From: Prostheceraeus crozeri
Taxonomy: Eukaryota; Platyhelminthes; Polycladida; Euryleptidae
Length of the DNA stretch: 64,000 nt
NCBI GenBank assembly: GCA_907163375.1
Contig: CAJQUW010003430.1
Span: 213,381-277,380, forward strand
Reading direction: 5' to 3'
The position numbers and the translations under genes are program-made. Positions 1-60,997 of this stretch are shown in pieces. The notes beneath the pieces are model-generated. The model was not told the origin of the DNA. It ran no database searches and saw only the letters and a list, made by a program, of their open reading frames with translations. How positions within the stretch are numbered: the first letter of the stretch is position 1; each line of letters starts with the position of its first letter.

Positions 1-193
1 TCTTTGTGACATATAAGTGAAGTGTTCTCTGGCGAATTCTATATTTGAGGCGTACAAGTGAACTGCTCTCTCGTGAAGTCTCTATCTTGTTGAAGTATCA
101 ACCTTAAACTTGACTTCGTTGAAATGGTAAGTTGAAAATTTCTTCACTCATCTCCCTCAATCGTGTGGCTAATAGCATCTTCCTCAATTTCAG
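1..193 (+). promoter_or_regulatory. Left terminal promoter and leader of copy 1 (partial)
   Basis: A TATA-like motif lies at about 11-17, roughly 110 nt before an ATG at 124-126 that is followed directly by a GTAAGT donor. The intron ends at 193. Copy 2 has the same layout at 49008-49189. The right end of copy 1 carries a diverged inverted version at 16067-16280, which identifies this as the inner part of a terminal inverted repeat. The CCAAT boxes seen in copy 2 fall outside the window here. Confidence 0.7.
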
Positions 194-3100
194 GCATCAA
201 CTTCATCACCAACGCCCTCCCTTCTCGAGGAAAGTTTAGAGTTGTTGAGTCAAAGTAGGTTGTAACAATACACTGAGACTTGAACAGAGATGATAGAATG
301 ATTTCTCTTTCAGGTGATGTGAGTTCCAGCTCAGGACTCTCGCGACAAGGCAACGAGTGGGAATGTGCCGACTGCGGACATATGTTTACAAGGAAGCACA
401 GTCTCCTTCGACACATCAAACAACGTGTGTGTCAACGCAAAGCGGCGTCAATCTCCGGAGGTGAAGTTGATTCTGACGATGACATCTCCTTTCCTTGCGA
501 TTTGTGCCCTCTTTCTTTTGATAGTCACTTTCAGCGATCTTCGCACAGACTTCAACACACGCATGCAAATGATCACTACACCAACGGTACCTCTACCATC
601 TCCCTCATTAATGTTTCACACAATAATTTAGTACGCGACTACTGTATGGAGTCCAATACTCAAATAGTAGATTTTCCTGAGTGGCTCCTTCAAAATTCTA
701 ACATTATCGAAGCGCTCTTCAACAATTTAGACAATTTTAGAATGAAGGCGCTCATCTACCTTAAACTAAAATATATTAAGATAGATTTTCAAACGGGTCA
801 AGTGACGGAGAGAATACAGTTTCATGTTCCTTCCTCTTCCGCAACCGAAGTTGTAGACTGCGAGTCTTGGCTAAATTTTCACATTCAATGTTTAAAATCA
901 AATGTAGATAAATTCAATCAACGCAACAGCGCTCTCATTTTTGATGGTGTGGATTCAGCCATATTCAAAATTTCCCTATTAGAAAGTCATGCAGCTCGAG
1001 GCACATTTAAACTACCAAAAACGTTGTATAATAAGAAAGCTGTCATCAATGTCGATTGTAAATCACAGTGTTTCAAATATGCAGTCCTATCCATCCTTCA
1101 CTATAATGATATCAACGCGAATCGAAATCATACCTATAGCTATAGACAGTGGGAGGATGAACTAGTCTTTGAAGGTTGTGATAGTGACAACATGAAAATC
1201 AAAGATGTAGAAACGTTCGAAAAACATAATAAGATTAAAATTGTCGTTCACGTGTGGGAGAAGGGGTTGAAGGGTGCCCGCTATAATTCACGTTCAACTT
1301 GTTATGAACGTGTAGTCAACCTCTTATTAGTAAAACAAGATGATAGCGAGGAATGGCACTACTGTGGTATTTCCAAAATCTCTCGCTTGTACACTAACTT
1401 GGGGCACTTTAAAAGAGGTGAACATTTTGTATGCGACCGCTGCATCCGCTCCTTTTGGAGTAAAGATAAATTTGAAACTCACTATGAATGGTGCAAGCGA
1501 CATAAATTACAAATGGAACGCATGCCCAAAGATAAAATATTTTCACATAGGGATAATGGTGACGAATTAAGTCTCCTGCGTGTCATTTACGCAGACATAG
1601 AATGCTACATTGATGATATCATCCACAAGGCAGCAGCCCTATCCTGCTATGAAGTATGGCATGACCACTTTAGGAATAGACAAAACAAAATGCATACTTG
1701 GCAAGGTGAAGATTGTATTTCAAAATTTCTAGAATTTCTCGATAGAGCTGCCAAATTTCAACAATCATATGATTCCCAATTGCAGCATAAGTCACTACAT
1801 ATGTCAGATGAAGACAAACAGAAATTTGAAAGTTGCACATCGTGCCCTAAATGTCATAAAACGTTTGATGACGATAAAATTAAGAAAGTGCGTGATCATG
1901 ATCACATCACTGGTAAATTTAGAAACGCACTCTGCTCCAAATGTAACTTTTCACTTAGGTTGAGACGTCGCGCACTACCCGTCATTTTTCATAACTTTAA
2001 GGGCTATGACAGGTATATGCTCATAAAAGGAGGGTTGAGCCAGATGAAATCGTGGCAGTTTAATGTAATAGCGCAAATGAGAGAAAAATTCATGGCAATG
2101 ACAGCAAAAGTACCAGTAGATAAAACTAAAGAAAATAAGACAGTCTTCTTCGAAATAAAATTTTTAGATTCATTCCAATTTATGTCAGCGTCACTAGCTT
2201 CTCTCGTTCGTAATCTCAAGTTTCTTCCCCATAGTCAAACTTTGAAGAAACACTATCCAAACTTAACGGATGAAATAATCACTCGCAAAGGAGTCTTTCC
2301 CTATGCGTATTTTAGCTCAATGTCTAAACTAAATGAAACAACCCTTCCTTCCATTGACAAATTCCAAAACGATTTGACGGGTCAAGATTGTCCAGTGGAG
2401 GACTATGAACATGCTCAAGAGGCATGGTTAAAATTTGATTGTAAAACGTTTGGCGATTATATGATCGCTTACTTAGAATTAGATGTCATTTTCCTGGCTG
2501 ATGTCTTTCAGGAATTTCGACGAGTGGCATTAGAAGAAGACAAATTAGATCCTGTCCACTTTGTCAGTCTACCAGCCATGTCCTTTAAATCAGCCTTTAA
2601 AATGACTGGTGAGACCATCCATCTCTTACAAGAACCGGAGATGTATAACATATTTGAGCGCGGAATACGCGGTGGTCTCACATTTGTGAATAAACATCAC
2701 ATAAAATCTAAAACAGTAGGTAATGATCATATCCACCTAAAGTACTATGACCAAAATAATTTATATGGCAGTTCACTGTCTAAACCACTACCTCATTCCG
2801 AGTTTAGTTGGTTAAATCAAGATGAGCTTGCGTATTACTCCAACCCTTCAAACATTCTGAAGATTCCAGATGAAGGTGATTGGGGATATTATTTTGAAGT
2901 GGATTTGATTTATCCAAATAGTATTAAAAATAAAACTGCTGATTTCCCACTCGCACCTCAATCTGGTGAAGTGACTGAAGATATGTTTTCACCATTCATG
3001 TCACAATTTCATAATAACTTAACAGAGTGTGGACAGCCAAGGTACAAACCATGCCGCAAACTTTTGCTCAACCAATATGATAAGAAAAATTATCTCGTGC

Positions 3101-4056
3101 ACTTCTGCATACTAAAATTCTATTTAGAAATGGGCATGCTTCTAAAGTCAGTTCATCGCATTATCAAATTTAGACAGAAAGCCTTCCTCAAACCCTACAT
3201 AGATAGTAACAGTCAAAAACGTGCACTCGCCCAAAGTAATTTTGAAAAGGATTTTTATAAATATAAGAATAACAGTCTTTTCGGAAAGACCATGGAGGAT
3301 CTTAGAAAACGTATGAACTACAAACTAGTCGTTGATGAACAAAAATATCACAAATTGACCTCATCACCTCTTTTCATTGATAGAGACATCATCGATGAGG
3401 ATCTTGTAGGTGTTAAAATGATAAAATCAGAAGTTGAGTTGTGCAAATCCATCTATATTGGGCAAGCCGTTTTAGATTATTCCAAGCTTGAAATGTATCA
3501 ACTCTTCTACAAAATATTAAAACCATGCTCTCTCGTAAAAGAGGTTCGCTTGCTGGGTGGTGATACAGATAGTTTCTTTTTAGGAATTACCACTCAAAAA
3601 GATTTAAATTTTAATGAAGTAGGTAAGTCATCAGAAAAATATTTCTATACATCTAACTACAATCCCACTCATCCACTCTATTCCATACAGAATAAAGCCA
3701 AACTTGGTTGTTTTAAGGATGAAACAGCAGGAAAGGAAATAGATGAAATGATTCTCCTCCGTCCTAAAATGTATTCCATGAAACTAAAAGAATGTGCAGA
3801 TAGTATTAAGCGTGCTAAAGGTATATCAAAATCCATTGTTCACAAAATGAAACATCGGTCCTATAAGAAGGCCTATAAAAATAAAACTATAACGTTTGTC
3901 AATATGACAATCTTAAAATCTCAAGTTCATACTGTGAAAACGCACACGTTCAAGAAACGAGCACTTTCAGCATGGGAGGATAAGAGGTGTTGGATAGGAC
4001 ATAACACATCTCTTCCACATGGAAATCCTGACACATACCTCCACCCAAAAGAATAA
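124..4056 (+). CDS. polB: Protein-primed-type family B DNA polymerase, copy 1 (spliced, altered C-terminus)
   Basis: This polymerase would replicate the element. I place the start at an ATG-only exon (124-126), followed by exons 194-254 and 314-4056. Both introns (67 and 59 nt) are GT-AG and the joins stay in frame, giving about 1268 aa. Visible in order: C2H2-type fingers near 365-570 and 1425-1500, an endonuclease VII-like DHDHITGK/CN motif near 1890-1950, exonuclease motifs YADIECY (about 1589), FHNFKGYD (about 1990) and YLELDVI (about 2470), then polymerase motifs A (YDQNNLYGSS, about 2750), B (NNSLFGK, about 3270) and C (GGDTDSFF, about 3560). Relative to copy 2, about 4 nt are missing near 4035, which shifts the last residues and removes a basic tail. 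An unspliced start at 280 is the alternative but would discard the conserved exon 2. Confidence 0.92.
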
Positions 4057-5824: not shown

Positions 5825-5833
5825 ACTTTTGCA

Positions 5834-7230
5834 TTAACTCTTCATTCGGAAATGGAGTGTGATACTTGTCACAGCATCTTTATGAAAAGGAATCAACGCA
5901 CCAGCATCGTCATAAATTGCAATATCAATTTGTGGGATGTAGTTTGATTTCAGCTTTGTATAATGCACTTTCTTGAAAGCATGCTCAGATAAAATACTGC
6001 AGCTTTTTGGCTGGTATGGTATCATTGCTAGCAATGGAGCTTCAACATCTCCCACACGTACATCTTCACCAATATTGGAATATATCTGAAAATAGTTAAT
6101 ACGACGCGATAGTGACATGTCTGCGCTAGCTTTGGTTACAGTACCACTTTTAAAGATATTTTGATCAAAACCCAAAATGTCCATTAGAGTTTTATCCATA
6201 ATTAGTTCAATACCTTTTCCACTTATAGTGAGAGACAAAACACCTTCTTTTTCAGAAAATGAAATTTGTTGGTCATTAATCACTTCATTTAAATAATCTA
6301 CAACCAATTTAACTGAAGTAATAATGCGAGGCATCAACACTCTTGTTTCATGTAAGATACCACCTAAAGGCTCTACACACTTTCTGTATAAAGATACGGT
6401 CCATTCTGTATCAAATTGATTTGACCTTTCACATGGTAAATGTTGCATATCAAATTTTCCATGAACAGCTGCAGAACGATGTCGTAAGAACTGATGAAAA
6501 TCTTTTGAACAAACTAATACTAGATCATCATCATTTAATTTACTTATTGCAATATGATTAGATGATTTGATATACGTCAATGTTGCCACTTGTTTACCAT
6601 CAACTCGAAGGAGATAATTAAATTTCTTCAATAATGTTTCAGGAGTCATGTTTGTCTTTCTTGGCTTAATCACAATCTTCTTCACCAACGTCTTCTCATT
6701 TCTTGGAATAAGATCTACATAATAAGCTTCCTCTCGATATATTAACTGTTTATGACCACTTATGTGGTAATTAACGTTATAATTATCATAGCTTGTTAAG
6801 GCGCTAGCGAGGTAACCTAAATCATTTCTTAAACTTGGACTTAAACCAAAATCCAATCTTTCTCAACTACATGATGTACATAAGTATGATCATCATTGTG
6901 CGGAGTAAATTGGACACTATGTTTACACGCTTTATTCAAGAAATCATATATAAACTTTTTACATGATAAGAGATCTTTCTTTGGCCACTGTGGAATGTAT
7001 ACTCGGCACCCCTTTTCACATTGGTAAGCAGCTGTGCGTCTCATATTAATAGTCATCACCTCATGATCAAAAGTATAGACACAGTTGCTATGAACAAGTT
7101 GAGTGACACCCACTTCCCACTTTCCATTTAGCTGTTGTGCATGATCAATGGGAGTAGAAAAGAGTGCGGCTCGATTACTAGCAAATCTATTTGCAGCCGC
7201 ATTGCTAAGCAAAATATGATAAAACGACAT
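5834..7230 (-). pseudogene. WEVG-motif structural-type protein 2, copy 1 (frameshifted)
   Basis: The N-terminal part (from ATG 7230) has the WEVGVTQL block. Near 6847-6856 one base is missing relative to copy 2, so the frame breaks after about 128 codons, and the remaining 330 or so residues lie in another frame (5834-6856). Copy 2 keeps a single 465-aa frame. It is probably a virion component like its paralogue, by context only. It starts 35 bp from the divergent 118-aa gene, so the two must share a very compact promoter region. Confidence 0.8.
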
Positions 7231-7265
7231 TTTGATATTGCTGATCTGCGGCTTTGCATAACATC

Positions 7266-7622
7266 ATGAAGACTTGGATTTTGGACTCTCTACAATATAT
7301 CAGAGTTGATCGTAATGGAAACGTACATTTCAAAAATTCTCATGGTCATGCATCAAGAGGTATTACATCAACATGGCGACAATTTGTCAACCTCAATGAT
7401 ATCATGAGGGATTTGGAATATTTTGAAACATTAAGATTCATCTCCTTGGGTGATCAAGTTTGGCTTCAACATTACAGAAATGAAATTCAAATCTGCCATT
7501 CTCATTCCGCAAACTGTTTCTCATTTCGCAAATACAATTGGGAGAAGTATAGAAGATACATACATCGCTCCATCATTACATTTATTCGTCGTGAGTTCAT
7601 CGCCCTACTATGCAAATCTTAA
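7266..7622 (+). CDS. Small protein, paralogue of the next gene
   Basis: This 118-aa protein begins at ATG 7266; an upstream TTG is in frame but unlikely to be used. Its plan, WxLDSLQxI...DRxxNVxFK...RxFxxLxxIMxDLxYF...W.KY.R.vHRSI, is shared with the neighbouring gene, so one arose by duplication. I do not recognise it firmly. The strand pattern followed by an 'aromatic-x2-L-x2-I' helix vaguely recalls the PC4-type ssDNA-binding fold, which would suit a neighbour of a TBP-like gene; this is weak inference. It is nearly identical in copy 2. Confidence 0.65.
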   Translation: MKTWILDSLQYIRVDRNGNVHFKNSHGHASRGITSTWRQFVNLNDIMRDLEYFETLRFISLGDQVWLQHYRNEIQICHSHSANCFSFRKYNWEKYRRYIHRSIITFIRREFIALLCKS

Positions 7623-7644: not shown

Positions 7645-8142
7645 ATGAGTTGGAAATTAGATTCCCTACAACGTATTGAAACGGATCATGATCGAAACGT
7701 CTATTTCAAAGATTCAACTGGAAATGTGAGAAGAGAGTTTGCTTTATCTTATCGTCATTTTCAATCTCTACATCATATCATGAAGGATTTGAAATACTTC
7801 TATATGAAAAAACATTCACGTATTGGAAATCGCATCTGGTTGCGCGTCAACAAACGGCGAATTCAACTCTATCATTCCCAACTCCATACTAACTTCACAT
7901 TTCATCAAGGTAGTTGGGAAAAGTATAAAAGGAAGGTACATCGCTCAATTTACTCATTTTTTCATCATGAAGCGCCATCACTACACCATCGTCAACATTC
8001 TCCGTCGCTTCAGACTCTACACCAAAATCGATCTCACGACATTACACAAACACCTTCCAAACAGCAAGTATTACCCGGGCCGTCCTCAAATGTTAGTGGT
8101 GAAGATGAACAATTCACGGAATCTTCAACTCTTCCCAAATGA
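7645..8142 (+). CDS. Small protein, paralogue of preceding gene; overlaps TBP-like gene (shortened in copy 1)
   Basis: ATG at 7645; 165 aa here. Residues 1-110 align with the preceding 118-aa protein. The rest lies in a different frame over the TBP-like gene and is rich in Ser, Gln and His. In copy 2 the frame runs on to 216 aa; here a TGG codon has become TGA at about 8140-8142. The same base change alters one residue (Gly to Glu) in the overlapping TBP-like frame. The conserved domain ends almost exactly where the TBP-like frame begins, so the C-terminal extension may be fortuitous. Confidence 0.6.
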   Translation: MSWKLDSLQRIETDHDRNVYFKDSTGNVRREFALSYRHFQSLHHIMKDLKYFYMKKHSRIGNRIWLRVNKRRIQLYHSQLHTNFTFHQGSWEKYKRKVHRSIYSFFHHEAPSLHHRQHSPSLQTLHQNRSHDITQTPSKQQVLPGPSSNVSGEDEQFTESSTLPK

Positions 8143-8512
8143 GACTGTACAGATTCTCGGCGCCCTTTCTCATTCATCGGCGCAGTCAATGCGCTTAGAG
8201 CTACAGAGACTACTACGTCGGATATGGAAGAGGGAGAGGTGTGTGATGTCGAATCTGACTGTAGACAATATGGTGATCTCTACTCAATTGAGTGAAAGTG
8301 TATCATTTTTGAAGATTCGTACCAGCAGTTACAATTTGTGTTATGAACCCGAACTTTTTCCTGCAGCTCTCATTAGTTGTTGGTTACCTGTGCATGTTGC
8401 AATCTTTCATAATAGTAAAGTGATCATTACTGGACTAAAATCTCATGTACAAGCAAATGTGATCCTATACTATCTCATCGAGTATGTACGTACCCAGCGG
8501 ATTGTAAAATAA
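7967..8512 (+). CDS. TATA-binding-protein-like protein, copy 1
   Basis: From ATG 7967 this frame gives 181 aa, the size of a bare TBP core. The second half carries YEPELFP (residues 126-132) followed by IFHNSKVIITG (146-156), matching the C-terminal TBP repeat. The first half has a second, weaker repeat with KIDL (20-23), YYP (36-38) and QLFPNETVQILGA (54-66). Known TBP inserts four phenylalanines into the minor groove; here three equivalents are visible (F56, F131, F147) and the fourth position is Pro40. The inferred role is element-specific promoter recognition; TATA boxes are present at both element ends. The stop codon lies inside an AATAAA. A TTG-started longer frame from 7823 exists but the added part does not look like TBP. 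Confidence 0.82.
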   Translation: MKRHHYTIVNILRRFRLYTKIDLTTLHKHLPNSKYYPGRPQMLVVKMNNSRNLQLFPNETVQILGALSHSSAQSMRLELQRLLRRIWKRERCVMSNLTVDNMVISTQLSESVSFLKIRTSSYNLCYEPELFPAALISCWLPVHVAIFHNSKVIITGLKSHVQANVILYYLIEYVRTQRIVK

Positions 8513-8703: not shown

Positions 8704-9000
8704 TTAATTTCGCTGATATTGACGCGTATGTTTTCTCAACCACTGCTGTGTTGGTATATTTGGAGGTTGAGCAAGAGAGTCAAATAGTTCACCACGTCGG
8801 TCTTCTCCAATAAAGATCGCTTTCCAATGCTCACCACCTAAATTCTGCGAATGAGTGTTTAGCACAATAAAGATGGGATAGTGATTTACTGCATGTGGTA
8901 AGGTATCGAGCGAATAGACATTATCGAAAGCTTTCAACGTCGCTTCGTCTGCATTACGCTGTAGTTTAGTTTTAATATCGTCAGCAGTCAACCAACTCAT
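8704..9000 (-). CDS. Adenain-like cysteine protease, N-terminal part ending at in-frame UAA (copy 1)
   Basis: The 98 residues up to the first stop hold GGEHW (His58) and ELFDSLA (Asp74), the His and acidic residues of adenovirus-type maturation proteases (about 200 aa in adenoviruses). The nucleophile Cys is missing from this part but appears in the same frame 11 codons after the UAA. Both copies have the UAA. The product would cleave capsid or core precursors in the particle. The ATG overlaps the stop of the capsid-type gene in the pentamer TAATG. Whether the enzyme is made by readthrough, editing or splicing, or is dead, cannot be decided here. Confidence 0.75.
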   Translation of the reverse strand: MSWLTADDIKTKLQRNADEATLKAFDNVYSLDTLPHAVNHYPIFIVLNTHSQNLGGEHWKAIFIGEDRRGELFDSLAQPPNIPTQQWLRKHTRQYQRN

Positions 9001-10277
9001 TAACGATTATACTGAAGAATCACGTCACGATACTTCGTAATTTTAATATTTGAATCGAAGACTGCATAAACTAATACATTGATCGTCTCAGGTAGTGTTC
9101 TTTTGAACGTCAAATCCAAACGAATATTATGAGGCACGTTCGCTTGACGATAGGGTGCACTAATATCGCTGTCAGCAGTCAAATCAAATGCATAAATAGT
9201 ATATCCACTCTTAAACACTTTCATAGTCAGTCCGTTGGTGTCATCCGTATTGTAAAAGCCAAAGACATCCATAAAATCAACATAACTGCGCATAAATTGA
9301 TCCGAAGCAAAATCTGGTTTGTAGGGTGGACCAGGATGACTCACACCATTTACACGTAAAGCAATTTCACTTAACTGATTATGTTTAAAATTGAAAGGAT
9401 TCTTCTTTATATTACCATTAAATGCATCATTTTCAACCATTGCCACCATGAGGAGCTTCGGTGCTTCCGATGGAAAGAGGCCATCTTTCATGAAACTCTT
9501 TTGATCTTTCGGAATTGTAAAGGTGAGAAGCTTTGTATGCTGAACGGGGTAAATGGCATTTTGGCGGTTAAGACCTTCAGCATGCCCTCTAATGACACTT
9601 GGATTCGGTACTACTCGACGAATGTAAAGTGCAATATCTTCCACATGAATTCTAAAATTGTCAACTTTAGCAAATGCATTCAGCGCAAATTCAGGCTTAT
9701 TCAATGTCAGCTTGAGTCGCATGCTGGTATTACAGAGTAAAAACTTTGACTGTCTAAAGACGTCTAAATTCAGCGGACCATATAGCTGACATACTCTACT
9801 ATCTTTAATCATAGCAGATCGCTTTACAAAGCCACTGTTTGTTTCAGCATCAAATTTTCCTGCTTCATCTCTGTACCATTCCATGGCTTCTATATGACTT
9901 TTTTGTGCTGCTGGATAGAACTGTGATGCATGATTGAAATATGATTTATAGGGATAATCGTTTTGACCACCTTCCACCTGCTGCTCTCCAATCGTTAGAG
10001 AAACATCACGAAGTAATGTAGTCAATGGTAAATTGTTCATTCCAACTTTATGTGTATCGTCAATAGCAGTTCCATCTGCTTGCTGAATTCTAAATCTCAA
10101 ATCAACCATCGCATAACTCAAATCTATGTAGTCATCACTACCACCAGGAATAACAAATTCAATGGGGCCAGCATTCTCAGCTGTTCGAGGATGATAATCT
10201 ACAATACTTGAACTAAGAATATCTGTCTGTATGGCTTGTTGATCAAACAAACAAAACCCGGAAGTTTTACACTCCAT
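9000..10277 (-). CDS. F54H12.2-like capsid-type protein, copy 1 (intact)
   Basis: This 425-aa protein begins MECKTSGFCLFDQQAIQTDI and has the phrases VIPGGSDDYIDLSYAMVDLRF and SLTIGEQQVE. They are typical of a widespread animal family that databases label F54H12.2-like and that occurs in Maverick-type elements. I take it as the likely major capsid or capsid-type protein from context; I cannot show a jelly-roll fold by eye. In copy 2 a single-base loss near 58154 changes the C-terminus, so only this copy is intact. Its stop overlaps the protease start (TAATG), and the basic protein gene ends 3 nt upstream. Confidence 0.75.
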   Translation of the reverse strand: MECKTSGFCLFDQQAIQTDILSSSIVDYHPRTAENAGPIEFVIPGGSDDYIDLSYAMVDLRFRIQQADGTAIDDTHKVGMNNLPLTTLLRDVSLTIGEQQVEGGQNDYPYKSYFNHASQFYPAAQKSHIEAMEWYRDEAGKFDAETNSGFVKRSAMIKDSRVCQLYGPLNLDVFRQSKFLLCNTSMRLKLTLNKPEFALNAFAKVDNFRIHVEDIALYIRRVVPNPSVIRGHAEGLNRQNAIYPVQHTKLLTFTIPKDQKSFMKDGLFPSEAPKLLMVAMVENDAFNGNIKKNPFNFKHNQLSEIALRVNGVSHPGPPYKPDFASDQFMRSYVDFMDVFGFYNTDDTNGLTMKVFKSGYTIYAFDLTADSDISAPYRQANVPHNIRLDLTFKRTLPETINVLVYAVFDSNIKITKYRDVILQYNR

Positions 10278-10735: not shown

Positions 10736-10776
10736 AGCTCAAACCCTAAACATTGTTAGTTACAACTTTGCATGAA

Positions 10777-11995
10777 TCACTGTCGATCACTTAGATGAAA
10801 GATGTCGGCACGACGCATCCAAGAGTTCATACTTGAAGGATAACCAGTCCATTTAACAAGACACCATTCTTCACCTTGCCGTTTTTTACATCGAATGATT
10901 TTCTCTACCAAATATGTTTCACTTTCAGTGACTACCTCAATCTCATCGCGGTAAAAGCTACCCTCAATTTCTTCATTATCGTAATCTTTCAACTTGTAGG
11001 TGGTGGGAGAGTCTTTTTGATCAATCCTTGATACTGTAAATACCTCCTCTGTCCAATTCGGAAGGTACCCTTTAGCAAAAACACTTCACTTTTGAGATAC
11101 GAACTTTATCACCAATTTTCACATAACTTTTCACATGAGTGCGTTTACGTTGGAATGATTCGCGCACTTTATCTACATTGTCAGCATTTACATCTACTGG
11201 TCTGAGTCCAATAGAACGATGGATAGAGTGATTGTAGGCATGGAGTGTATCTTGTAGAACCTTTGTCCAATTTTGTGTCAAGTTGGCAGTAAAATGTCGC
11301 CACAAGCGATTTTTTAATGTGCGATTAAAACGTTCAACGAGTGCAGCTTTATAGGCACTCTTTACACTAAACAACTCAATGTCATGCCTCTCAAATAATC
11401 TTGTCACATGCTGATTTTCAAACTCTTTTCCTTGATCAATCTGAATTCTTTTTGGAATGCGACCTTCTCGAAAAATTGTTTGGAATGCTTTTGCTACTCC
11501 TTTCCCTTCTTTAGTTTTTAAAGGTTGAGCCCACGCATAACGCGAGAAAATATCAATGACGGTTAAAATAAAATTATTGCCCGAGTTATGTTTTGAAATG
11601 GAGGCAACATCACACAAATCTGCTTGCCACTGTTCATCGATGTCATGACCAATATAATGGCGGGTGCGGTACTTCTTTTTCGCTTGTTTGTGGAGTGTAT
11701 AGGTAGCCTGACCCTTTAATCATCGTTTCACTTGTGATTGTGGAAGACCACTCGCTTTTGATAATTTCTTGATAGATGCAAATCCTGCCGGATGTTTTAC
11801 ATCATAATAGATTGACCTCAAACGTTCAGTCGATGACGACTGACTCTTTTTCCTCCTTCTCATCTTTTTGCTTTCTTGCCTTTTTACATTTACAACAACT
11901 GCAGCATTTAGCTTTAGCGGTTTTGCGATCGTGTTCACATTGCTTAGGAGTTTCATTGTGAGAGCTGGCGCAGCAAGTGCAAGTGACAACGACAC
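10777..11995 (-). pseudogene. Retrovirus-type integrase with chromodomain, copy 1 (broken)
   Basis: The frame equals the intact integrase of copy 2. It is interrupted by TGG to TGA at 11720-11722 and by a loss of 2 nt near 11085. The catalytic core (from about 11617 down to 11080) keeps the DDE-type residues in the phrases QADLCD, DQGKEF and VERFNRTLKN; the residue before the second Asp is Ile instead of Ser. A C-terminal chromodomain-like part (VEKIIRCKKRQGEEWCLVKW) lies at about 10790-10920. The position corresponding to the copy 2 N-terminal ATG is GTG here, which argues that translation starts further in, near 11863. Confidence 0.88.
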
Positions 11996-12042: not shown

Positions 12043-12735
12043 TTAATAGTCTGAGAACATGTATTTCTTGGGAGGAGGTGTTTTACGTTTTCCTTTTACT
12101 AGTTTTAGTGGTGGCGTAGATCTACGTCGAGTTCTTCCTCTTGTTTCCTTAGTGAGTGTGGGAGGGGATGTAGCAGGTGACGTCTTAAACCAATTTGTTG
12201 GCATTTTCATCGTCTGAAGCATTGGAGCAGTAGCCACTGTTGAATCACGTTCTTTCAATGTCTCATTATTCAAAGCAAATTTTGGCACATTATGCTTTTT
12301 CAATAGTTTAAGAAAGTATGACCAACCAGGTGGAACATAGCCTTGACGGCGCTTTCTACGTGTCGCATACTGAATCAAGTCTTCATAACGTGAAGCATCA
12401 ATCACTTTATTTTCATCTGTAATGATTTCTCCTCTATCATTTACATTGAGATGGGGTTCAATACTGTTGAAAAGAGATATGGCATGTGCGCGAGATGCTA
12501 AAGGTGTAGCAGTGGACACAGAGTCACGCATCTTATTCTTCAAATTTTTTAGTTGCTCAACAGTTTCCGATTGTAATAATACAGCACGATGTGGATCTTT
12601 GATGTGAACATTTTGCTGATAATCTATTTCTTTCCTATACATTTGATTTGCAAGAGCTTGCTTTACTTGCTGCATGGCAGTCAATTGTACATATTCATCC
12701 TGAGAAATAACAATCATGCGAGAATAAGAACTCAT
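12043..12735 (-). CDS. Conserved protein between ATPase and integrase, copy 1
   Basis: This 230-aa protein is not recognised. The N-terminal half is rich in Gln, Lys and Asn and probably helical. The middle has EDLIQYATRRKRRQGYVPPGW and FLKLLKKHNVP, and the C-terminus is basic and Pro/Ser/Thr-rich (RGRTRRRSTPPLKLVKGKRK). Its start overlaps the ATPase stop in the tetramer ATGA. Position in the packaging/core block suggests a virion or DNA-binding role, by inference only. It is full length in both copies. Confidence 0.7.
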   Translation of the reverse strand: MSSYSRMIVISQDEYVQLTAMQQVKQALANQMYRKEIDYQQNVHIKDPHRAVLLQSETVEQLKNLKNKMRDSVSTATPLASRAHAISLFNSIEPHLNVNDRGEIITDENKVIDASRYEDLIQYATRRKRRQGYVPPGWSYFLKLLKKHNVPKFALNNETLKERDSTVATAPMLQTMKMPTNWFKTSPATSPPTLTKETRGRTRRRSTPPLKLVKGKRKTPPPKKYMFSDY

Positions 12736-13349
12736 AGTTTGTAGATAATCATGGGAGTTTTCAAAATATCACTTCGAAATCTAAATTCTTCCGGACACTC
12801 TTGCGTAAAGTCAATGAATAAGTAACCGTGTGGTTTTTTAGTAGCTGCTTGAAAAATTTCAATTAAGGCTTTTGATCCTCTGGGTGCAACTTGTCGCGCT
12901 AAAATTTCAAATTGACTTTTATCTCGCGGATTCTTGAAAATAGCATAATAGTGTGTATTCAGGTTTCGTGTACGAGCTTCTTTTCCATCAGGAAACAAAT
13001 TTTGTGTGATATAGATGATAAAGCACCGTTTATGATGTGCTGCGCGAGTGAACATATCTGTAACATCTTTTGAATTCTTACTTTCTTTTAATAAATCATC
13101 CAATACAACAACATCATTAGACTGAAGTTTATCCACTGGAATAATTCCTTCATGTCGAATAAAGTTGCGACTTTGCAATTCCTGAAACAGCGACGGTCGA
13201 TAAATACCATAACACCAAATCACTCGATTGATAGGTTCCTTAAACAACTCCCTTCTTTTATCCAATAAATTCAGCGTGAAAACAGTTTTACCTGCATGAG
13301 ATGGACCTGATACAGTCAGAACTTTATCACATTGAAGTCTGAAATCCAT
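12732..13349 (-). CDS. A32/FtsK-HerA-type packaging ATPase, copy 1
   Basis: ATP-driven genome packaging is the known role of this family. Walker A is GPSHAGKT, Walker B is VVVLDDLL, and a sensor-like ITQN follows. I start it at ATG 13349 (MDFRLQC) because this residue and what follows are shared by both copies, while the upstream frame overlaps the pX-like gene's end and diverges. This gives 205 aa, a usual size for Polinton ATPases. The stop overlaps the start of the 230-aa gene (ATGA). Confidence 0.9.
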   Translation of the reverse strand: MDFRLQCDKVLTVSGPSHAGKTVFTLNLLDKRRELFKEPINRVIWCYGIYRPSLFQELQSRNFIRHEGIIPVDKLQSNDVVVLDDLLKESKNSKDVTDMFTRAAHHKRCFIIYITQNLFPDGKEARTRNLNTHYYAIFKNPRDKSQFEILARQVAPRGSKALIEIFQAATKKPHGYLFIDFTQECPEEFRFRSDILKTPMIIYKL

Positions 13350-13380
13350 TATAATACTTTGAGATTCAACATTTGCATAA

Positions 13381-13746
13381 TTAACGTCTAGAGCCAAAGA
13401 TATTACCAAATACGTTGCCCACGATAGGAGCTAGCATCGGTAGTAACGCTGGAAGGAAACCGCCCTTTTGTGTTAGAGTTTCCCTCTTTCTTTGAAGGGT
13501 GACTTTAGGATTGGAGATGAAACGCAATTTCGTAGCATATCGCTTAAGTAACTTTCGTTGTTTTGGTGCTAATTTCTTCGTCCTCAACTTTCTCACATGA
13601 GAAATAATTTCACGGATGAATTTATCGTTAGCATGTCGTATAGCATTGTATCGCTGATTTGCTTTCATTCGTCGGAGAGCTTGAATGGCTGAAGAAAACT
13701 TTGAAGACTTTTGACTTTTACGTTTCGTCATTTTACGTTTCGCCAT
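13381..13746 (-). CDS. Basic core protein with adenovirus pX-like tail, copy 1
   Basis: The protein has 121 aa. The N-terminus is strongly basic (MAKRKMTKRKSQK, then LRRMKANQRYNAIRHAN and KLRTKKLAPKQRKLLKRY). The C-terminus has a diglycine followed by a hydrophobic helix (GGFLPALLPMLAPIVGNVFG), the arrangement of adenovirus/adintovirus pX (mu) precursors, in which the viral protease cuts near the Gly-Gly. A DNA-condensing core role follows from that family. It is intact in both copies with small length differences near the N-terminus. Confidence 0.75.
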   Translation of the reverse strand: MAKRKMTKRKSQKSSKFSSAIQALRRMKANQRYNAIRHANDKFIREIISHVRKLRTKKLAPKQRKLLKRYATKLRFISNPKVTLQRKRETLTQKGGFLPALLPMLAPIVGNVFGNIFGSRR

Positions 13747-13797
13747 TTTCCGTGTTAGTCTTTGCTAAAACCTGTCTTTACCGCATTTGCATAGGTA

Positions 13798-14121
13798 CTA
13801 ACTATTGCGGCATAAGTGACACTCGAAATGAGCAATATCACAGTGGTTACATTTGCAAAGTTGAATGCAATTAGGTATGAAACAGCGTTGACAAAAAGCA
13901 TGCTTACATCTCTTGAAGATGCGCTTTTCATTTCCATCCTTTCGCCTACATACATCGCAACACATAGTTTCACCGTTACTGTTGTCTATAGCAAGTCTTT
14001 TTGAAGACATGAATTTGCTAGCCTTTTCTAAATAATAGACGCATGTACAGAAGGAATATACTTCGAGAGTGAGCAGACATAGCTCGAAAACCAGTTGTGC
14101 TACAATCAAGTACCACTGCAT
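13798..14121 (-). CDS. Membrane-anchored RING-type protein, copy 1
   Basis: ATG 14121 gives 107 aa. A hydrophobic N-terminal segment (WYLIVAQLVFELCLLTLEVY) predicts one membrane pass. The C-terminal half has CCDVC, then RCKHAFCQRCF and CIQLCKCNHC...CHLC, a RING-like Cys/His pattern. A ubiquitin-ligase role in the membrane is inference. The ATG lies just after the stop of the upstream 139-aa gene. In copy 2 a 7-nt loss just after the ATG puts the start out of frame. Confidence 0.65.
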   Translation of the reverse strand: MQWYLIVAQLVFELCLLTLEVYSFCTCVYYLEKASKFMSSKRLAIDNSNGETMCCDVCRRKDGNEKRIFKRCKHAFCQRCFIPNCIQLCKCNHCDIAHFECHLCRNS

Positions 14122-14123
14122 TT

Positions 14124-14543
14124 TCAATTTTTCTTTATGGAAATTTGAATGTGAATATCTGAAATCGCTTCAATCACTAGACTGCTACCATGATGGTTAA
14201 ATGCGTTAAAACGTTCAGCAATTTTTATCATATGTCTTTTAAAAAATTCTTGGGGGTGATCTACCACTTCCATTGAATAAGAAGCAAAATGGAAAGAGCG
14301 ACTTTCCACCTCTTCCTTTCCAAAATGACTAAACTTAATTTTCGCAACTAATCGCGCCATGATAATGCTATCAGAGAATGTATTCATTAACTCTAGAAAT
14401 AGAGTGCTTGCATCATCGACCACTGCTTCGATGTCGGTTACATCTTTATGAAAATTTATCACATAATCTTGAACAGCTCCTTTTAAACTTTGCCTATGAA
14501 AATGTAATGTTCCGCAGTCGTTTGAGAAAGACATGATCGCCAT
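14124..14543 (-). CDS. Conserved 136-139-aa protein with FNxxGSS motif, copy 1
   Basis: The phrase IAERFNAFNHHGSSLVIEAISDIHI resembles the 'I..F...GSG..I..I' signature I associate with N-terminal regions of polymerase-type proteins of animal virus-like elements. That link is tentative. Copy 2 lacks the first ATG; the ATG three codons in (MSFSND) is shared, so translation probably starts there (14534). Full length in both copies. Function unknown; perhaps replication. Confidence 0.65.
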   Translation of the reverse strand: MAIMSFSNDCGTLHFHRQSLKGAVQDYVINFHKDVTDIEAVVDDASTLFLELMNTFSDSIIMARLVAKIKFSHFGKEEVESRSFHFASYSMEVVDHPQEFFKRHMIKIAERFNAFNHHGSSLVIEAISDIHIQISIKKN

Positions 14544-16136: not shown

Positions 16137-16280
16137 TTTAGTTGGATAATAGAATAGAGAGAGAGAGAGAAAATGTGCGTCCGTCACTCGTGCGATTCAA
16201 CGATGGAATGATTCTCACTGTGGAAGGCTCGCTATTTATAAAGAAATGCTTGATTCTCATTGGATGATGATCCTCATTGG
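16067..16280 (-). promoter_or_regulatory. Right terminal inverted repeat with promoter, ATG and intron
   Basis: Read leftward: CCAAT (16276-16280), a second CCAAT 17 nt on (16259-16263), TATAAATA 23 nt further (16233-16240), a leader of about 100 nt, ATG, GTAAGT, and an acceptor at 16067. Copy 2's left end has the two CCAAT boxes and TATA at the same 17- and 23-nt spacings and a 67-nt intron. The rest is diverged but alignable. A GA microsatellite (about 16154-16170) lies in the leader. Confidence 0.75.
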
Positions 16281-17640: not shown

Positions 17641-18578
17641 CTATCCAGAAGTGGAGTTTTACTTACTACTTGTGAAAGAAACATTTAGCCAATCAGACTA
17701 TCAAATCTTCTCATTAAGTTGGCTACGATATCTTGACGATTGTTTTGTGATCTGGAAAGACTCTTTTGGAAATGTGAATAATTTTCTTACATTTATCAAT
17801 ACCTTGAATGACAGTATAACGTTCACTATGGAAATCGATAGAGAAAATTAAAATTTTTTGGACGTACATATCTTTAAAGAAGGCAATAAGATCGAACGAG
17901 ATATTCATTTTAGATCGACAGACAGTCACAACTATCTCCCATTCGGGACACCCAAAACATGTGATACGCAGCATTCCCTACACACTGGCTAGCAGAATTA
18001 ACTCAATTGTCTCTAAATCTGAAATTAAGGATCTCCTATAGTTACAAATGAAAACACGTTTGACAGAGCTTGGTTATCCAGAGCAACTAATACAAGAGGC
18101 CATAAATAAGTGCACTACGATTCGTACGAAACAACCAAATCAGGATAAATCAGTAATCAATTTTGTTCAAACATTTAATCCCAACAACCCAGAAATATAT
18201 AACAGCGTAATTAAGCCTGTTTTCTCAGGGTTGCAGTTAACTGACCCATTTGATAAATGTATGGTCCGAAAATCTTATCGTCAACCTCCATCACTACTCC
18301 GAATATTACGAAAGCAGAAAGATGAATGTGTTGATGGAGTTACAAAATGTGGAGATAAAAAATGTAAGTGCTGTGAATCTATCATAGTAGGGAAAGAATT
18401 CAAATATAAACATGGTGAACAGACGAAAATAATTCACATAAAAACAAACATGACTTGTGATTCCAAAGATCTAATTTATGTGCTAAAATGCCACGGATGC
18501 GAAGCCTTCTTTATATGTGGGACAAACGGGCGATTCTCTTCGATCGAGAGTGCGAGTCCATCGCCAGCAAATAAATGA
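17640..18578 (+). pseudogene. Penelope-like retroelement reverse transcriptase fragment
   Basis: The frame from 17636 carries SLSWLRYLDDCFVIW, the catalytic YLDD-type motif of Penelope-like reverse transcriptases. The next segments (NFLDV, then STDSHNYLPFG) continue after an in-frame stop and a frameshift. The frame from 18048 holds the linker region with KCGDKKCKCCESI and a decayed GIY-YIG start (LIYVLKCHGCEAFFICG). Several stops and shifts show it is dead. It lies in opposite orientation to the GIY-YIG fragment at 21.7 kb. Confidence 0.8.
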
Positions 18579-24570: not shown

Positions 24571-24740
24571 TCAGAGGGAGGTCGTCTCTAAGGCGTCAGA
24601 CTTAGAGGTTCGCCAGGAGTTGGCCTTCGTCTCCAGGCCATAAAAGACTCCAAAACTTTAAAGGCTTGTAACTTTGCTTCTACAAGTCCGTTTGACTTGA
24701 TTCAAAAAAGGTTCGGTCGCTATTGACCTGCCCTAAGTGA

Positions 24741-24770
24741 TAGACTACTTATAAAATTTCATAAGTAGTG
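24741..24770 (+). other. Perfect 9-bp hairpin near cassette start
   Basis: ACTACTTAT and ATAAGTAGT flank an 8-nt AT-rich loop. The third cassette has a shorter ACTACT/AGTAGT version at about 44412-44440, so the feature persists despite sequence change. Confidence 0.45.
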
Positions 24771-24929
24771 CTAAAAAGTTGAAAAATTTAAATTCACTAG
24801 TTTTGGAGGTTTTCTGGGGTTTTCGACCCTGCCGAAGTCAATGAAAGCATTTTTAATGATGTCGGAGCCAGTCTTCTCATGGTATAAGCGGCTTTTCACT
24901 GAAAGCGAGCAAGACACGGAGAGTTTTGC

Positions 24930-25140
24930 TGTAATATTCCACTGACAGGGTGTTCCTTCGGGACGGCGGACGATGCCGTAGTGATAAGTGTGGCAAGGGA
25001 GTGTGTCATAGTTTAGACCGTAACCGCTGGGACAACTCATGTCTCATGTTGGGCATTTGACACAGTTCTCAACGTAACACTTTGAACGCCAATCGGTTGA
25101 GTGTTAGCTATCTTGTCATGGGTGGCCTCTAAACATCTCC
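24930..25140 (+). ncRNA. Structured-module candidate A (family A/B/C)
   Basis: Related to modules at 25.6 and 27.1 kb: a TGTAATA start, a GTTCC-TTCG-GGAC hairpin, an ACGGC/GCCGT hairpin with 7-nt loop, then GTTTAGACCG-AACC and CTCATGTTGGG. A minus-strand frame (24771-25040) exists but has no coding pattern. Transcription is unproven. Confidence 0.35.
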
Positions 25141-25173
25141 ATTGCAAAACGCTGGTGAATCAAGCTCTCTACG

Positions 25174-25187
25174 GCTTGCTATCAAGC
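25174..25187 (+). other. GCTATC-loop hairpin (GCTT/AAGC stem)
   Basis: GCTT-GCTATC-AAGC. One of several hairpins sharing the loop GCTATC on different stems in the cassettes. Confidence 0.5.
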
Positions 25188-25226
25188 TGATCAAAGCAAT
25201 AACTTGGGATGTTTCCTCAAGGTTTT

Positions 25227-25500
25227 CAAGTATGCTGAGTTCAAATCTGCTATCAGATTTCAAATTTAACTAAGTCTAAGGCAGCTTTGAGGGGTTAGAT
25301 CCCAGCTACTGTTCACTACCTGTGACTCGGCGTTGCTGTTACCACTTCGGGGCAGTGAGAATGATGTCTTAAGCTGTAAATAGCGGGTATCGGGGAAGAT
25401 CTCTTACTTTCCTAGTGATCAGTACAAGGCCTTCGGGCTGTCGACGGGATCGAGTGCCACTCACTACACTCAAATCTATCATTCCTCACTAAGTGTAAAT
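25227..25500 (+). ncRNA. Structured-module candidate U, left arm
   Basis: A roughly 275-nt unit present four times in the window. It starts with an AAATCT-GCTATC-AGATTT hairpin (25243-25260). ACTGTTCACTA and TAGTGATCAGT can pair over about 100 nt (one mismatch here, perfect in the third cassette), and GGCC-TTCG-GGCT follows. Within the domain a GGGAAG/CTTCCC hairpin of the third cassette becomes GGGAAG/CTTTCC here, keeping pairing through G-U. These suggest a structured RNA; a pol III B-box-like GTTCAAATC lies at the start. Confidence 0.45.
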
Positions 25501-25518
25501 TACTGACTATACATTTGT

Positions 25519-25577
25519 CCTGCTATCAGGTTGTTTTGACTTGCTATCTAGTTGAATAGTCTCTTGCTATCAAGAGA
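25519..25577 (+). other. Cluster of three GCTATC-loop hairpins
   Basis: CCT-GCTATC-AGG (25519-25530), ACT-T-GCTATC-T-AGT (25539-25552) and TCTCTT-GCTATC-AAGAGA (25560-25577). The loops agree while the stems differ and stay complementary. Confidence 0.55.
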
Positions 25578-25599
25578 TTCACTTCTGCTCATAAAGCAA

Positions 25600-25800
25600 A
25601 TCATCGCTGTAATACCTCCTTTGCTCGAGCGTTCCTTCGGGACGGCGGGTACTGCCGTAGAGGGATTGTGTTGCACGGGTTGTTCGTCGTTTGTTAGACC
25701 GAAACCTCTGAGCCGTTGCTCATGTTGGGCGTTCGACTTCATACTCAACGTGACTCTTTCTCTCACCAGGTCAGAGTACTTCAGCCATTCGACAAAGGTT
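25600..25800 (+). ncRNA. Structured-module candidate B
   Basis: Same family as modules A and C: TGTAATACCTCC, GTTCC-TTCG-GGAC, ACGGC/GCCGT with a 7-nt loop, TGTTAGACCG-AACC, then CTCATGTTGGG. The frames crossing it on both strands look like shadows. Confidence 0.35.
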
Positions 25801-25955
25801 AGTCTTTATGATATGGAGTAGAGTGAAATGTAATTCATTAGTTGTCCCTTCAATGATTGCTCCCATGATAAACGTTGATGAGACAAATGAAATGATTCTC
25901 ATCTTCCCTTTTCAGTGATTGAAATCTGCTAACACACTACCGTATAATCGTCCAC

Positions 25956-26056: not shown

Positions 26057-26078
26057 ACGTTGCGTCGCGTTAGAAGGG

Positions 26079-26085
26079 TATATAA
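26079..26085 (+). promoter_or_regulatory. TATA box of the 88-aa gene
   Basis: TATATAA 38 nt before the ATG; preserved at 46679-46685 in the third cassette. The leader between is a TTTCA tandem. Confidence 0.6.
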
Positions 26086-56645: not shown

Positions 56646-57296
56646 ATGAGTTGGAAATTAGATTCCCTACAACGTATTGAAACGGATCATGATCGAAACG
56701 TCTATTTCAAAGATTCAACTGGAAATGTGAGAAGAGAGTTTGCTTTATCTTATCGTCATTTTCAATCTCTACATCATATCATGAAGGACTTGAAATACTT
56801 CTATATGAAAAGACATTCACGTATTGGAAATCGCATCTGGCTGCGCGTCAACAATCGGCGAATTCAACTCTATCATTCCCAACTTCATACTAACTTCACA
56901 TTTCATCAAGGTAGTTGGGAAAAGTATAAAAGGAAGGTACATCGCTCAATTTACTCATTTTTTCATCATGAAGCGCCATCACTACACCATCGTCAACATT
57001 CTCCGTCGCTTCAGACTCTACACCAAAATCGATCTCACAACATTACACCAACAGCTTCCAAACAGCAAGTATTACCCGGGCCGTCCTCAAATGTTAGTGG
57101 TGAAGATGAACAATTCACGGAATCTTCAACTCTTCCCAAATGGGACTGTACAGATTCTCGGCGCCCTTTCTCATTCATCGGCGCAGTCAATGCGCTTAGA
57201 GCTACAAAGACTACTACGTCGGATATGGAAGAGGGAGAGGTGTGTGATGTCGAATCTGACTGTGGACAATATGGTGATCTCTACTCAATTGAGTGA
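56646..57296 (+). CDS. Small protein paralogue with extended C-terminus, copy 2
   Basis: 216 aa. The conserved domain (residues 1-110) is followed by about 106 residues that overlap the TBP-like frame and end in an acidic segment (DMEEGEVCDVESD). In copy 1 the frame stops 51 residues earlier. Conservation of the extension is therefore weak. Confidence 0.6.
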   Translation: MSWKLDSLQRIETDHDRNVYFKDSTGNVRREFALSYRHFQSLHHIMKDLKYFYMKRHSRIGNRIWLRVNNRRIQLYHSQLHTNFTFHQGSWEKYKRKVHRSIYSFFHHEAPSLHHRQHSPSLQTLHQNRSHNITPTASKQQVLPGPSSNVSGEDEQFTESSTLPKWDCTDSRRPFSFIGAVNALRATKTTTSDMEEGEVCDVESDCGQYGDLYSIE

Positions 57297-57513
57297 CAGT
57301 CTATCATTTTTGAAGATTCGTACCAGCAGTTACAGTTTGTGTTATGAACCCGAACTTTTTCCTGCAGCTCTCATTAGTTGTTGGTTACCTGTGCATGTGG
57401 CAATCTTTCATAATAGTAAAGTGATCATTACTGGACTAAAATCTCATGTACAAGCAAATATGATCCTAGACTATCTCATTGAGTATGTACGTACCCAGCG
57501 GATTGTAAAATAA
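56968..57513 (+). CDS. TATA-binding-protein-like protein, copy 2
   Basis: Same 181-aa frame as 7967-8512, with YEPELFP and the IFHNSKVIITG motif unchanged. Differences from copy 1 are few (for example E/G, N/S, V/M, Y/D). The stop lies within AATAAA as in copy 1. Confidence 0.82.
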   Translation: MKRHHYTIVNILRRFRLYTKIDLTTLHQQLPNSKYYPGRPQMLVVKMNNSRNLQLFPNGTVQILGALSHSSAQSMRLELQRLLRRIWKRERCVMSNLTVDNMVISTQLSDSLSFLKIRTSSYSLCYEPELFPAALISCWLPVHVAIFHNSKVIITGLKSHVQANMILDYLIEYVRTQRIVK

Positions 57514-59776: not shown

Positions 59777-60997
59777 TCACTGTCGATCACTTAGATGAAA
59801 GATGTCGGCACGACGCATCCAAGAGTTCATACTTGAAGGATAACCAGTCCATTTAACAAGACACCATTCTTCACCTTGCCGTTTTTTACATCGAATGATT
59901 TTCTCTACCAAATATGTTTCACTTTCAGTGACTACCTCAATCTCATCGCGGTAAAAGCTACCCTCAATTTCTTCATTATCGTAATCTTTCAACTTGTAGG
60001 TGGTCGGAGAGTCTTTTTGATTAATCCTTGATACTGTAAATACCTCCTCTGTCCAATTCGGGAGGTACCCTTTAGCAAAAACACTTTTCACTTTTGAGAT
60101 ACGAACTTTATCGCCAATTTTCACATCACTTTTCACATGAGTGCGTTTACGTTGGAATGATTCGCGCACTTTATCTACATTGTCAGCATTTACATCTACT
60201 GGTCTGAGTCCAATAGAACGATGGATAGAGTGATTGTAGGCATGGAGTGTATCTTGTAGAACCTTTGTCCAATTTTGTGTCAAGTTGGCAGTAAAATGTC
60301 GCCACAAGCGATTTTTTAATGTGCGATTAAAACGTTCAACGAGTGCAGCTTTATAAGCACTCTTTACACTAAACAACTCAATGTCATGCCTCTCAAATAA
60401 TCTTCTCACATGCTGATTTTCAAACTCTTTTCCTTGATCACTCTGAATTCTTTTTGGAATCCGACCTTCTCGAAAAATTGTTTGGAATGCTTTTGCTACT
60501 CCTTTCCCTTCTTTAGTTTTTAAAGGTTGAGCCCACGCATAACGCGAGAAAATATCAATGACGGTTAAAATAAAATTATTGCCCGAGTTATGTTTTGAAA
60601 TGGAGGCAACATCACACAAATCTGCTTGCCACTGTTCATCGATGTCATGACCAATATAATGGCGGGTGCGGTACTTCTTTTTCGCTTGTTTGTGGAGTGT
60701 ATAGGTAGCCTGACCCTTTAACCATCGTTTCACTTGTGATTGTGGAAGACCACTCGCTTTTGATAATTTCTTGATAGATGCAAATCCTGCCGGATGTTTT
60801 ACATCATAATAGATTGACTTCAAACGTTCAGTCGATGACGGCTGACTCTTTTTCCTCCTTCTCATCTTTTTGTTTTCTTGCCTTTCTACATTTACAACAA
60901 CTGCAGCATTTAGCTTTAGCGGTTTTGCGATCGTGTTCACATTGCTTAGGGGTTTCATTATGAGAGCTGGCGCAGCAAGTGCAAGTGACAACGACAT
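59777..60997 (-). CDS. Retrovirus-type integrase with chromodomain, copy 2 (intact)
   Basis: Integrases of this type insert Polinton DNA into host chromosomes. Catalytic residues lie in QADLCD, SDQGKEF and VERFNRTLKN, with the usual spacing of the D,D-35-E core. The C-terminus carries a chromodomain-like VEKIIRCKKRQGEEWCLVKW. 406 aa from ATG 60997, but the first 44 codons overlap the Cys-rich frame and the ATG is not conserved in copy 1, so ATG 60865 (MRRRKK) is the more likely start. Confidence 0.9.
   Translation of the reverse strand: MSLSLALAAPALIMKPLSNVNTIAKPLKLNAAVVVNVERQENKKMRRRKKSQPSSTERLKSIYYDVKHPAGFASIKKLSKASGLPQSQVKRWLKGQATYTLHKQAKKKYRTRHYIGHDIDEQWQADLCDVASISKHNSGNNFILTVIDIFSRYAWAQPLKTKEGKGVAKAFQTIFREGRIPKRIQSDQGKEFENQHVRRLFERHDIELFSVKSAYKAALVERFNRTLKNRLWRHFTANLTQNWTKVLQDTLHAYNHSIHRSIGLRPVDVNADNVDKVRESFQRKRTHVKSDVKIGDKVRISKVKSVFAKGYLPNWTEEVFTVSRINQKDSPTTYKLKDYDNEEIEGSFYRDEIEVVTESETYLVEKIIRCKKRQGEEWCLVKWTGYPSSMNSWMRRADIFHLSDRQ

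Follow-up and report, generated by a model that had tools for sequence, protein, structure and literature searches.

Giant viruses, mirusviruses, nimaviruses and herpesviruses are already known to encode TATA-box-binding proteins (TBPs), mostly together with viral partners. How the expression of virion genes is timed in a small element that has no recognised polymerase of its own is a testable question, and it is raised by an open reading frame (ORF) of the polyclad flatworm Prostheceraeus crozeri, which an earlier note on this DNA had described as a two-repeat TBP core encoded inside a Polinton-type element. The locus was analysed within a stretch of 64,000 nucleotides, called the window here, in which two copies of the element lie.

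The Element and Its Gene Set

The two copies are 97.5% identical over 14.9 kb, copy 2 extending beyond the window, and the element measures about 16 kb. Its genes follow one another in the order polB-type, 516-aa and 472-aa capsid-type, two PUR-like, TBP, protease-type, MCP-type, 151-aa, integrase, 230-aa, ATPase-type, 121-aa, 109-aa, 139-aa, 176-aa and 204-aa (Table 1); several of these labels, including MCP-type and protease-type, are our own assumption. The right end of copy 1 recurs in inverted orientation at the left end of copy 2, with about 70% identity over 167 nt. With Polintons/Mavericks the element shares an integrase that has an rve core and a chromodomain and, going by the labels given here, genes of polB, ATPase, MCP and protease type as well as inverted terminal stretches; it differs from them in having a TBP gene. 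Judged by its integrase, its gene complement and these terminal stretches, the element appears to be of Polinton type, in agreement with the earlier assignment.

Table 1. Features of the element in the window (window positions; copy 1 unless stated otherwise)
Feature	Position	Strand	Remarks
Left-end TATA-like box CATATAAG	10..17	+	copy 2: TATATAAG, 49008-49015
Left-end ATG, then GTAAGT	124..193	+	acceptor-like CAG 67 nt on
polB-type ORF	280..4056 (copy 2: 49276-53094)	+	with endonuclease VII-like insert
Capsid-type, 516 aa	ATG at 5824	-	
ATGCAAA before 516-aa gene	5828..5834	-	10 nt from ATG
Capsid-type, 472 aa	ATG at 7230	-	frame split in copy 1
ATGCAAA before 472-aa gene	7253..7259	-	
PUR-like protein 1	7266..7622	+	122 aa if from TTG 7254; AlphaFold of copy 2 protein
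ATGCAAA before PUR-like protein 2	7610..7616	+	kept in B; one base changed in C
PUR-like protein 2	7645..8142	+	165 aa; copy 2: 216 aa (56646-57296)
TATAAAAG before TBP ATG	7924..7931 (copy 2: 56925-56932)	+	43 nt upstream
TBP-fold protein, copy 1 (P0001)	7967..8512	+	181 aa from ATG; by profile, predicted fold and residues
TBP-fold protein, copy 2	56968..57513	+	intact; 13 nt and 8 aa differences from copy 1
Protease-type	8704-9000		overlaps end of MCP-type gene; label presumed
MCP-type	9000..10277	-	label presumed
151-aa core-type	copy 1 start 10735, set by homology (copy 2: 59280-59735, intact)	-	precedes MCP-type and protease-type
ATGCAAA before 151-aa gene	10767..10773	-	
Integrase	11072-11995, in pieces (copy 2: 59777..60997)	-	rve core and chromodomain
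Packaging-ATPase-type	12732..13409	-	GPSHAGKT by eye
ATGCAAA before 121-aa gene	13786..13792	-	
Right-end ATG/GTAAGT/CAG arrangement	ATG 16136 to about 16068	-	
Right-end TATA box TATAAATA	16233..16240	-	

The copy 2 ORF of the integrase matches rve (E 5.4e-11) and Chromo (E 6.6e-7), and weak matches were obtained for the ATPase-type ORF (Pox_A32, E 0.036; a PHROG ATPase, E 0.0064) and for the copy 2 form of the 121-aa gene (adenovirus pX/mu, E 0.0028). The polB-type ORF gave no Pfam polymerase match at E ≤ 0.1 and no PDB polymerase match at E ≤ 1; its motifs NNLYG, NSLFG and GDTDS were recognised by eye and are taken by us to be polB-type. This ORF also has a weak N-terminal C2H2 zinc finger, and its endonuclease VII-like insert matches PF02945 (E 1e-6). 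No Pfam or NCBIfam match was found for the MCP-type ORF and no Pfam match for the protease-type ORF, and the 151-aa gene of copy 1 has no listed ORF of at least 90 aa. The 109-aa protein (13798-14127, minus strand), which is without a Pfam match, shows by eye a RING finger-like Cys/His pattern. When the 17 ORFs were scanned with Pfam, each in one copy or the other, neither a TFIIB nor an RNA polymerase was detected.

PUR-like protein 1 of copy 2 is predicted by AlphaFold to fold as beta4-alpha-beta4-alpha, with Pur-alpha repeats I-II as the best structural matches of the model; Foldseek alone gave zero matches at E ≤ 0.001. PUR-like protein 2 of copy 2 is 44% identical to protein 1, and the 3' part of its gene overlaps the TBP ORF in another frame. 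A JGI contig (10,296 nt, P0051) encodes a protein 99% identical to PUR-like protein 2 (56646-57296), and this contig could be either host DNA or a circulating element.

Identity and Relatives of the TBP Gene

The product of the copy 1 ORF, P0001, matches the Pfam TBP profile (PF00352) in two stretches with 63.5 bits against a cut-off of 22.9, which together with the coordinates and the ATG agrees with the two-repeat, 181-aa core described earlier. Ten NCBIfam TATA-box-binding models also match (E 5e-17 to 3e-5), each below its own curated cut-off. The second repeat contains YEPELFP and IFHNSKVIITG, in line with the two stretches mentioned earlier, and the structure prediction named in the earlier note as a check gave a model with the TBP saddle and not another fold. 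P0001 is 22% identical to yeast TBP. Compared with the cellular TBP core (PF00352; yeast 1ytb, M. jannaschii 2z8u), the Polinton protein is alike in its predicted two-lobed saddle, its size, its second-lobe DNA contacts and its TFIIB-contact Glu pair, whereas identity is 19-26%, the first lobe has Pro/Gln/Gln/Leu in place of Phe/Leu/Val/Thr, and the N-terminal extension is absent, leaving a bare 181-aa core.

Protein searches (5.8 billion proteins) gave 49 matches and then 206, the best 120 of which were listed; among the relatives listed, three are named by source, two of them as TATA-box-binding protein. The genome searched amounts to 2.05 Gb. With P0001 as query, the best 150 of 11,804 first-look candidates were scored and 149 of the 150 had no stop in the match; with a distant relative as query, 14 of the best 150 of 10,972 had stops, and both lists, which may overlap, being those of the best scorers, these open-frame fractions do not extend to all copies. 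Element copies are very numerous in this genome, and most of those scored have an open TBP frame. At 5% divergence, 51 copies (the two of the window and 49 fetched) form four clusters of 21, 20, 2 and 8 members. All members of the 21-member cluster, which is biased in that its 19 fetched copies are the best protein scorers, are intact; 28 of its 44 variable sites are third positions, and mean dN and dS are 0.0064 and 0.0405. Comparisons among the representatives of three clusters gave dN/dS values of 0.24, 0.29 and 0.18; no pair came from the two-member cluster, whose representative has a broken frame in the comparison. The TBP gene is under purifying selection, and the claim that it is preserved in both window copies holds.

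The search at the same locus elsewhere, another check proposed earlier, found the gene in this genome in two more subfamilies, B and C, and in a deep family, D. One locus each of B (C1213) and C (C5953), covered by two larger pieces per subfamily, matches all 17 genes of the window element (A) with their order unchanged, some frames being broken and polB partly missing. At the single locus of family D (C12605), matches to 14 of the 17 genes keep this order and TBP occupies its usual position; the 109-aa gene, the 204-aa gene and the second PUR ORF were unmatched there at E ≤ 1e-3. Identity to family D is 42-43% for TBP, 53% for MCP, 47% for polB, 64% for integrase and ATPase, 31% for the two capsid-type genes and 23% for the one PUR ORF, and D is a much deeper family than the subfamilies B and C. 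The TBP locus is fixed across A, B, C and D. In family D (C12605:330400-347800; L087, L088), two adjoining genes resemble the 121-aa protein, with 38% and 33% identity.

Whether the PUR-like neighbour accompanies other TBPs was judged from the 26 of 121 TBPs with a read-through extension of at least 10 residues before the chosen start, by asking if the shifted frame can encode the end of a PUR-like protein, with 500 shuffles each. Fourteen of the 26 beat at least 499 of 500 shuffles, one gave P 0.024 and 11 were negative (P 0.15-0.93); the same PUR-like neighbour is accordingly present in those 14.

The reading that would have undone the claim, a host TBP copy or processed pseudogene trapped in the element, shares with P0001 its fold and profile, and is nevertheless hardly credible. 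Host TBP is split over two separated exons on contig C9306, one (120470-120829) 79% identical to yeast TBP over residues 5-124 and the other (105711-105821) 86% identical over 37 residues, or 94% over 34 by blastp, against 22% for P0001. The 120 diverse relatives among the matches listed, the dN/dS of 0.18-0.29 and the same locus in family D at 42-43% identity also argue against it, and no unspliced host-like TBP copy was seen at the TBP place of the element. A third TBP-like locus (C3829; 39%, one stop within the match) is presumably a TRF2/TBPL1 paralogue.

Conserved and Changed Residues

Residues were counted in 121 TBPs (P0001 and its relatives) in yeast numbering, and the DNA-contact, TFIIB-side and TFIIA-side roles of the positions are those that we presume for yeast TBP. 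Three of the four kinking Phe residues had been recognised earlier, with Pro40 at the fourth position, and this was borne out: P0001 has Phe56, Phe131 and Phe147, and Pro40 is a family-wide feature, Pro replacing first-lobe Phe99 in 115 of the 116 relatives that are ungapped at this position. Further changes in the first lobe are Gln at the positions of Leu114 (111/121) and Val122 (121/121) and Leu at that of Thr124 (106/121; Thr in 0/121), and the residues kept are Asn69 (101/101) and Phe116 (121/121). The second lobe keeps Asn159, Val161, Phe207 and Thr215 (120/120 each), Phe190 (120/121) and Pro191 (121/121); the Leu205 position aligns to a gap, and Ser163 (63/120) and Arg196 (53/121) are variable. 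On the TFIIB side, the second stirrup has the Glu pair Glu186 (119/121) and Glu188 (121/121) characteristic of a TFIIB-recruiting TBP, with Leu (106) or Ile (13 of 121) at the Leu189 position, and varies outside the two Glu (Pro187 is Pro in 52/121). The TFIIA-side Lys138 position holds Lys in 17/121 and Glu in 70/121. Of the marks of a canonical TATA binder, three of four intercalating Phe are present, as are both Asn and the second-lobe Thr, and the first-lobe Thr is absent. The four changed first-lobe contact positions should lower the affinity for TATAAAA-type sites.

TATA Boxes and a GCAA-Type Upstream Motif

TATA boxes had been claimed for both element ends. At the right end, TATAAATA lies 98-108 nt before an ATG/GTAAGT start in 8/8 pieces having that start (13 examined); at the left end, a TATA-like box occurs in 7 of the 11 pieces having the start (13 examined) and is absent from the other 4, so that the claim stands for both ends but not for every left end. 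The ATG and the splice-donor-like GTAAGT are followed 67-68 nt on by an acceptor-like CAG in 8/13 right-end and 11/13 left-end pieces, so that a spliced mini-exon in the terminal region seems to supply the start codon of each terminal gene. Upstream of the TBP gene, the canonical TATAAAAG is found at -43 in A and in both further subfamilies, and family D has it at -46; it lies within Tyr-Lys-Arg codons of the upstream ORF. The count of TATAWAWR over the whole window is at chance level.

The commonest 7-mer in the 70 nt upstream of the 17 starts of copy 1 is ATGCAAA, present at five. In copy 1, equal commonness of any 7-mer was reached in 59 of 5,000 random window sets (P 0.012), and the corresponding tests for any 6-mer and any 8-mer gave P 0.074 and P 0.35; five windows with ATGCAAA itself occurred in none of 20,000 random sets, a test chosen after the motif was seen. 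The total of ATGCAAA in the element is not raised (8 against 5.9 expected). The motif precedes 5/16 starts in B, where TTTTCAT ties with it, and 4/16 in C, at -10 to -52. Its flanks have decayed at the 472-aa, 151-aa and 121-aa genes; at the 516-aa gene conservation extends over the entire stretch upstream, and the motif there overlaps the previous stop codon. In family D, some starts of which were set by homology, the commonest upstream 6-mer is AAGCAA (7/16 starts; P 0.0035 over all 6-mers). A joint pattern, [AT]A[ATG]GCAA, whose consensus was drawn by eye after the sites were seen, occurs at 7/16 starts in D (random mean 0.8) and 5/17 in A (random mean 0.7), each count being reached by none of 3,000 random sets. 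The five genes of A preceded by ATGCAAA are the two capsid-type genes, PUR-like protein 2, the 151-aa gene and the 121-aa gene, the last also core-type. In A, ATGCAAA is missing from the polB, TBP and 204-aa genes and also from the MCP, protease, ATPase and 230-aa genes, and these last four would therefore need shared transcripts under the late-promoter model set out below.

Proposed Mechanism and Alternatives

We think it fairly probable that the Polinton-specific TBP is a late-promoter initiation factor working in the host nucleus. Early, host TBP/TFIID would read the canonical end boxes (polB at the left, the 204-aa gene at the right) and the box before the TBP gene; late, the element TBP would bind an (A/T)A(T/A/G)GCAA(A)-like motif lying mostly 29-52 nt upstream of several virion-type genes. 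The second lobe would act through its canonical minor-groove and kinking residues, and the first lobe, in which Pro replaces Phe, Gln replaces both Leu and Val, and Leu mostly replaces Thr, would tolerate or read the G.C pair, such that the protein would prefer TTATGCAAA and TTAAGCAAA duplexes to the TATA duplex TATAAAAG. Recruitment of host TFIIB and Pol II by the conserved Glu pair is proposed because none of the element's genes was recognised as coding for TFIIB or an RNA polymerase, and the two PUR-like neighbours may help by holding single-stranded promoter DNA. From sequence we infer the action as an initiation factor itself, and likewise its DNA target, TFIIB recruitment, the early/late timing and the PUR-like role. 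The rebuilt first lobe and the shared non-TATA motif suggest that the protein would serve internal late genes and not the end boxes; the earlier interpretation is supported except in this part, the end boxes being canonical ones that should be read by host TBP. The fuller proposal, that animal Polintons carry a minimal early/late switch in which a half-rebuilt TBP of 181 aa, encoded beside PUR-like single-strand-binding proteins, reads the (A/T)A(T/A/G)GCAA promoters of virion genes via host TFIIB/Pol II, is put forward tentatively, with slightly less than even confidence.

The nearest working precedent for this mechanism is KSHV ORF24, which is reported to be a viral TBP mimic acting at non-TATA late promoters (TATTWAA) with host Pol II, a multidomain protein of 752 residues that depends on all four Phe and on cooperation with five further viral activators (PMC12529657); EBV BcRF1 is likewise treated as a herpesvirus late TBP mimic (PMC4922670). 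The herpesvirus mimics differ from the Polinton protein, a bare 181-aa core with three Phe and the TFIIB signature. Against the late-promoter model count the need of ORF24 for four Phe, one of which is Pro here, the motif only 10 nt from the ATG of the 516-aa gene, and the changed site before PUR-like protein 2 in C, as do the P values for 6-mers and 8-mers, the tie with TTTTCAT in B, the virion-type genes of A that lack ATGCAAA, the coding position of TATAAAAG before the TBP gene, the left ends without a box and the variable stirrup outside the Glu pair.

If the TBP-fold factor instead acted on the canonical TATA boxes of the two element ends and of its own gene, boosting or replacing host TBP, the presence of such boxes at these places and a second lobe that is canonical at the contact positions examined would be accounted for; four canonical DNA-contact positions of the first lobe are, however, changed family-wide, host TBP already serves such boxes and several virion-type genes have the other motif, and we regard this reading as unlikely. 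Similarly improbable is that the upstream motif is a host activator site of POU octamer type, the TBP working elsewhere or being delivered by protein contacts. ATGCAAAT is what we take to be the POU octamer, the ATGCAAA-like motif could be read by a host factor, and a motif-ATG distance ranging from 10 to 52 nt would fit such a site, but family D has AAGCAA/AGGCAAA and no octamer at the corresponding positions, and the distance is TATA-like for most sites. A decoy that keeps the TFIIB contact, binds DNA poorly and dampens host transcription by sequestering TFIIB would explain a near-invariant TFIIB Glu pair beside a DNA surface of which half is changed; it is quite unlikely, because a decoy would not need second-lobe DNA contacts conserved like the TFIIB contacts, nor first-lobe changes that are themselves fixed.

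Relation to Known Viral TBPs

Structure matches of the Polinton TBP in BFVD include TBPs of Heterosigma akashiwo virus and Terrestrivirus, identity being 6-20% in the 50 structure matches listed. TBPs are also reported from mirusviruses and from a nimavirus (wsv303); Chrysochromulina parva virus BQ1 is reported to encode a TBP together with two TFIIB and presumably relies on the polymerase of its host, and the TBPs of these dsDNA viruses are found mostly with a viral TFIIB and in some cases with a viral RNA polymerase. Viral TBPs are described as mostly losing the TFIIB signature and mostly being accompanied by their own TFIIB (PMC7221094), whereas the Polinton TBP retains the signature and no TFIIB is among the 17 ORFs of its element. 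A Cymbomonas study reports some TBPs in integrated elements of another kind, which have neither polymerase nor capsid genes. No report of a TBP in a Polinton was found in the accessible literature on Polintons, Mavericks or adintoviruses and TBP, a body in which subscription journals are mostly uncovered. On that literature, the novelty would lie in the kind of element that carries this viral TBP, in the fixed change of one lobe and in a candidate cognate promoter motif.

Two further questions become testable with this gene: whether the DNA specificity of a TBP can be altered in one lobe alone, and whether TBP capture dates back to small elements of a kind presumably akin to the ancestors of large DNA viruses. 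If the proposal is true, the element would have what is maybe the smallest viral preinitiation switch and would bring a second TBP specificity into an animal nucleus, and the switch would be so old that it is shared by families whose TBPs are 42% identical. The numerous copies, with open TBP frames in most of those scored, also raise the question of the effect of the factor on host promoters.

Between the two elements of the window lies an inverted repeat of 2,981 nt (24588-27568 and 37136-40116; 99.7% identical), which adjoins tandem arrays; such arrays also follow the right end of copy 1. An ORF of 176 aa at 18048-18578 (plus strand) is reminiscent of the C-terminal part of a Penelope-like retroelement.
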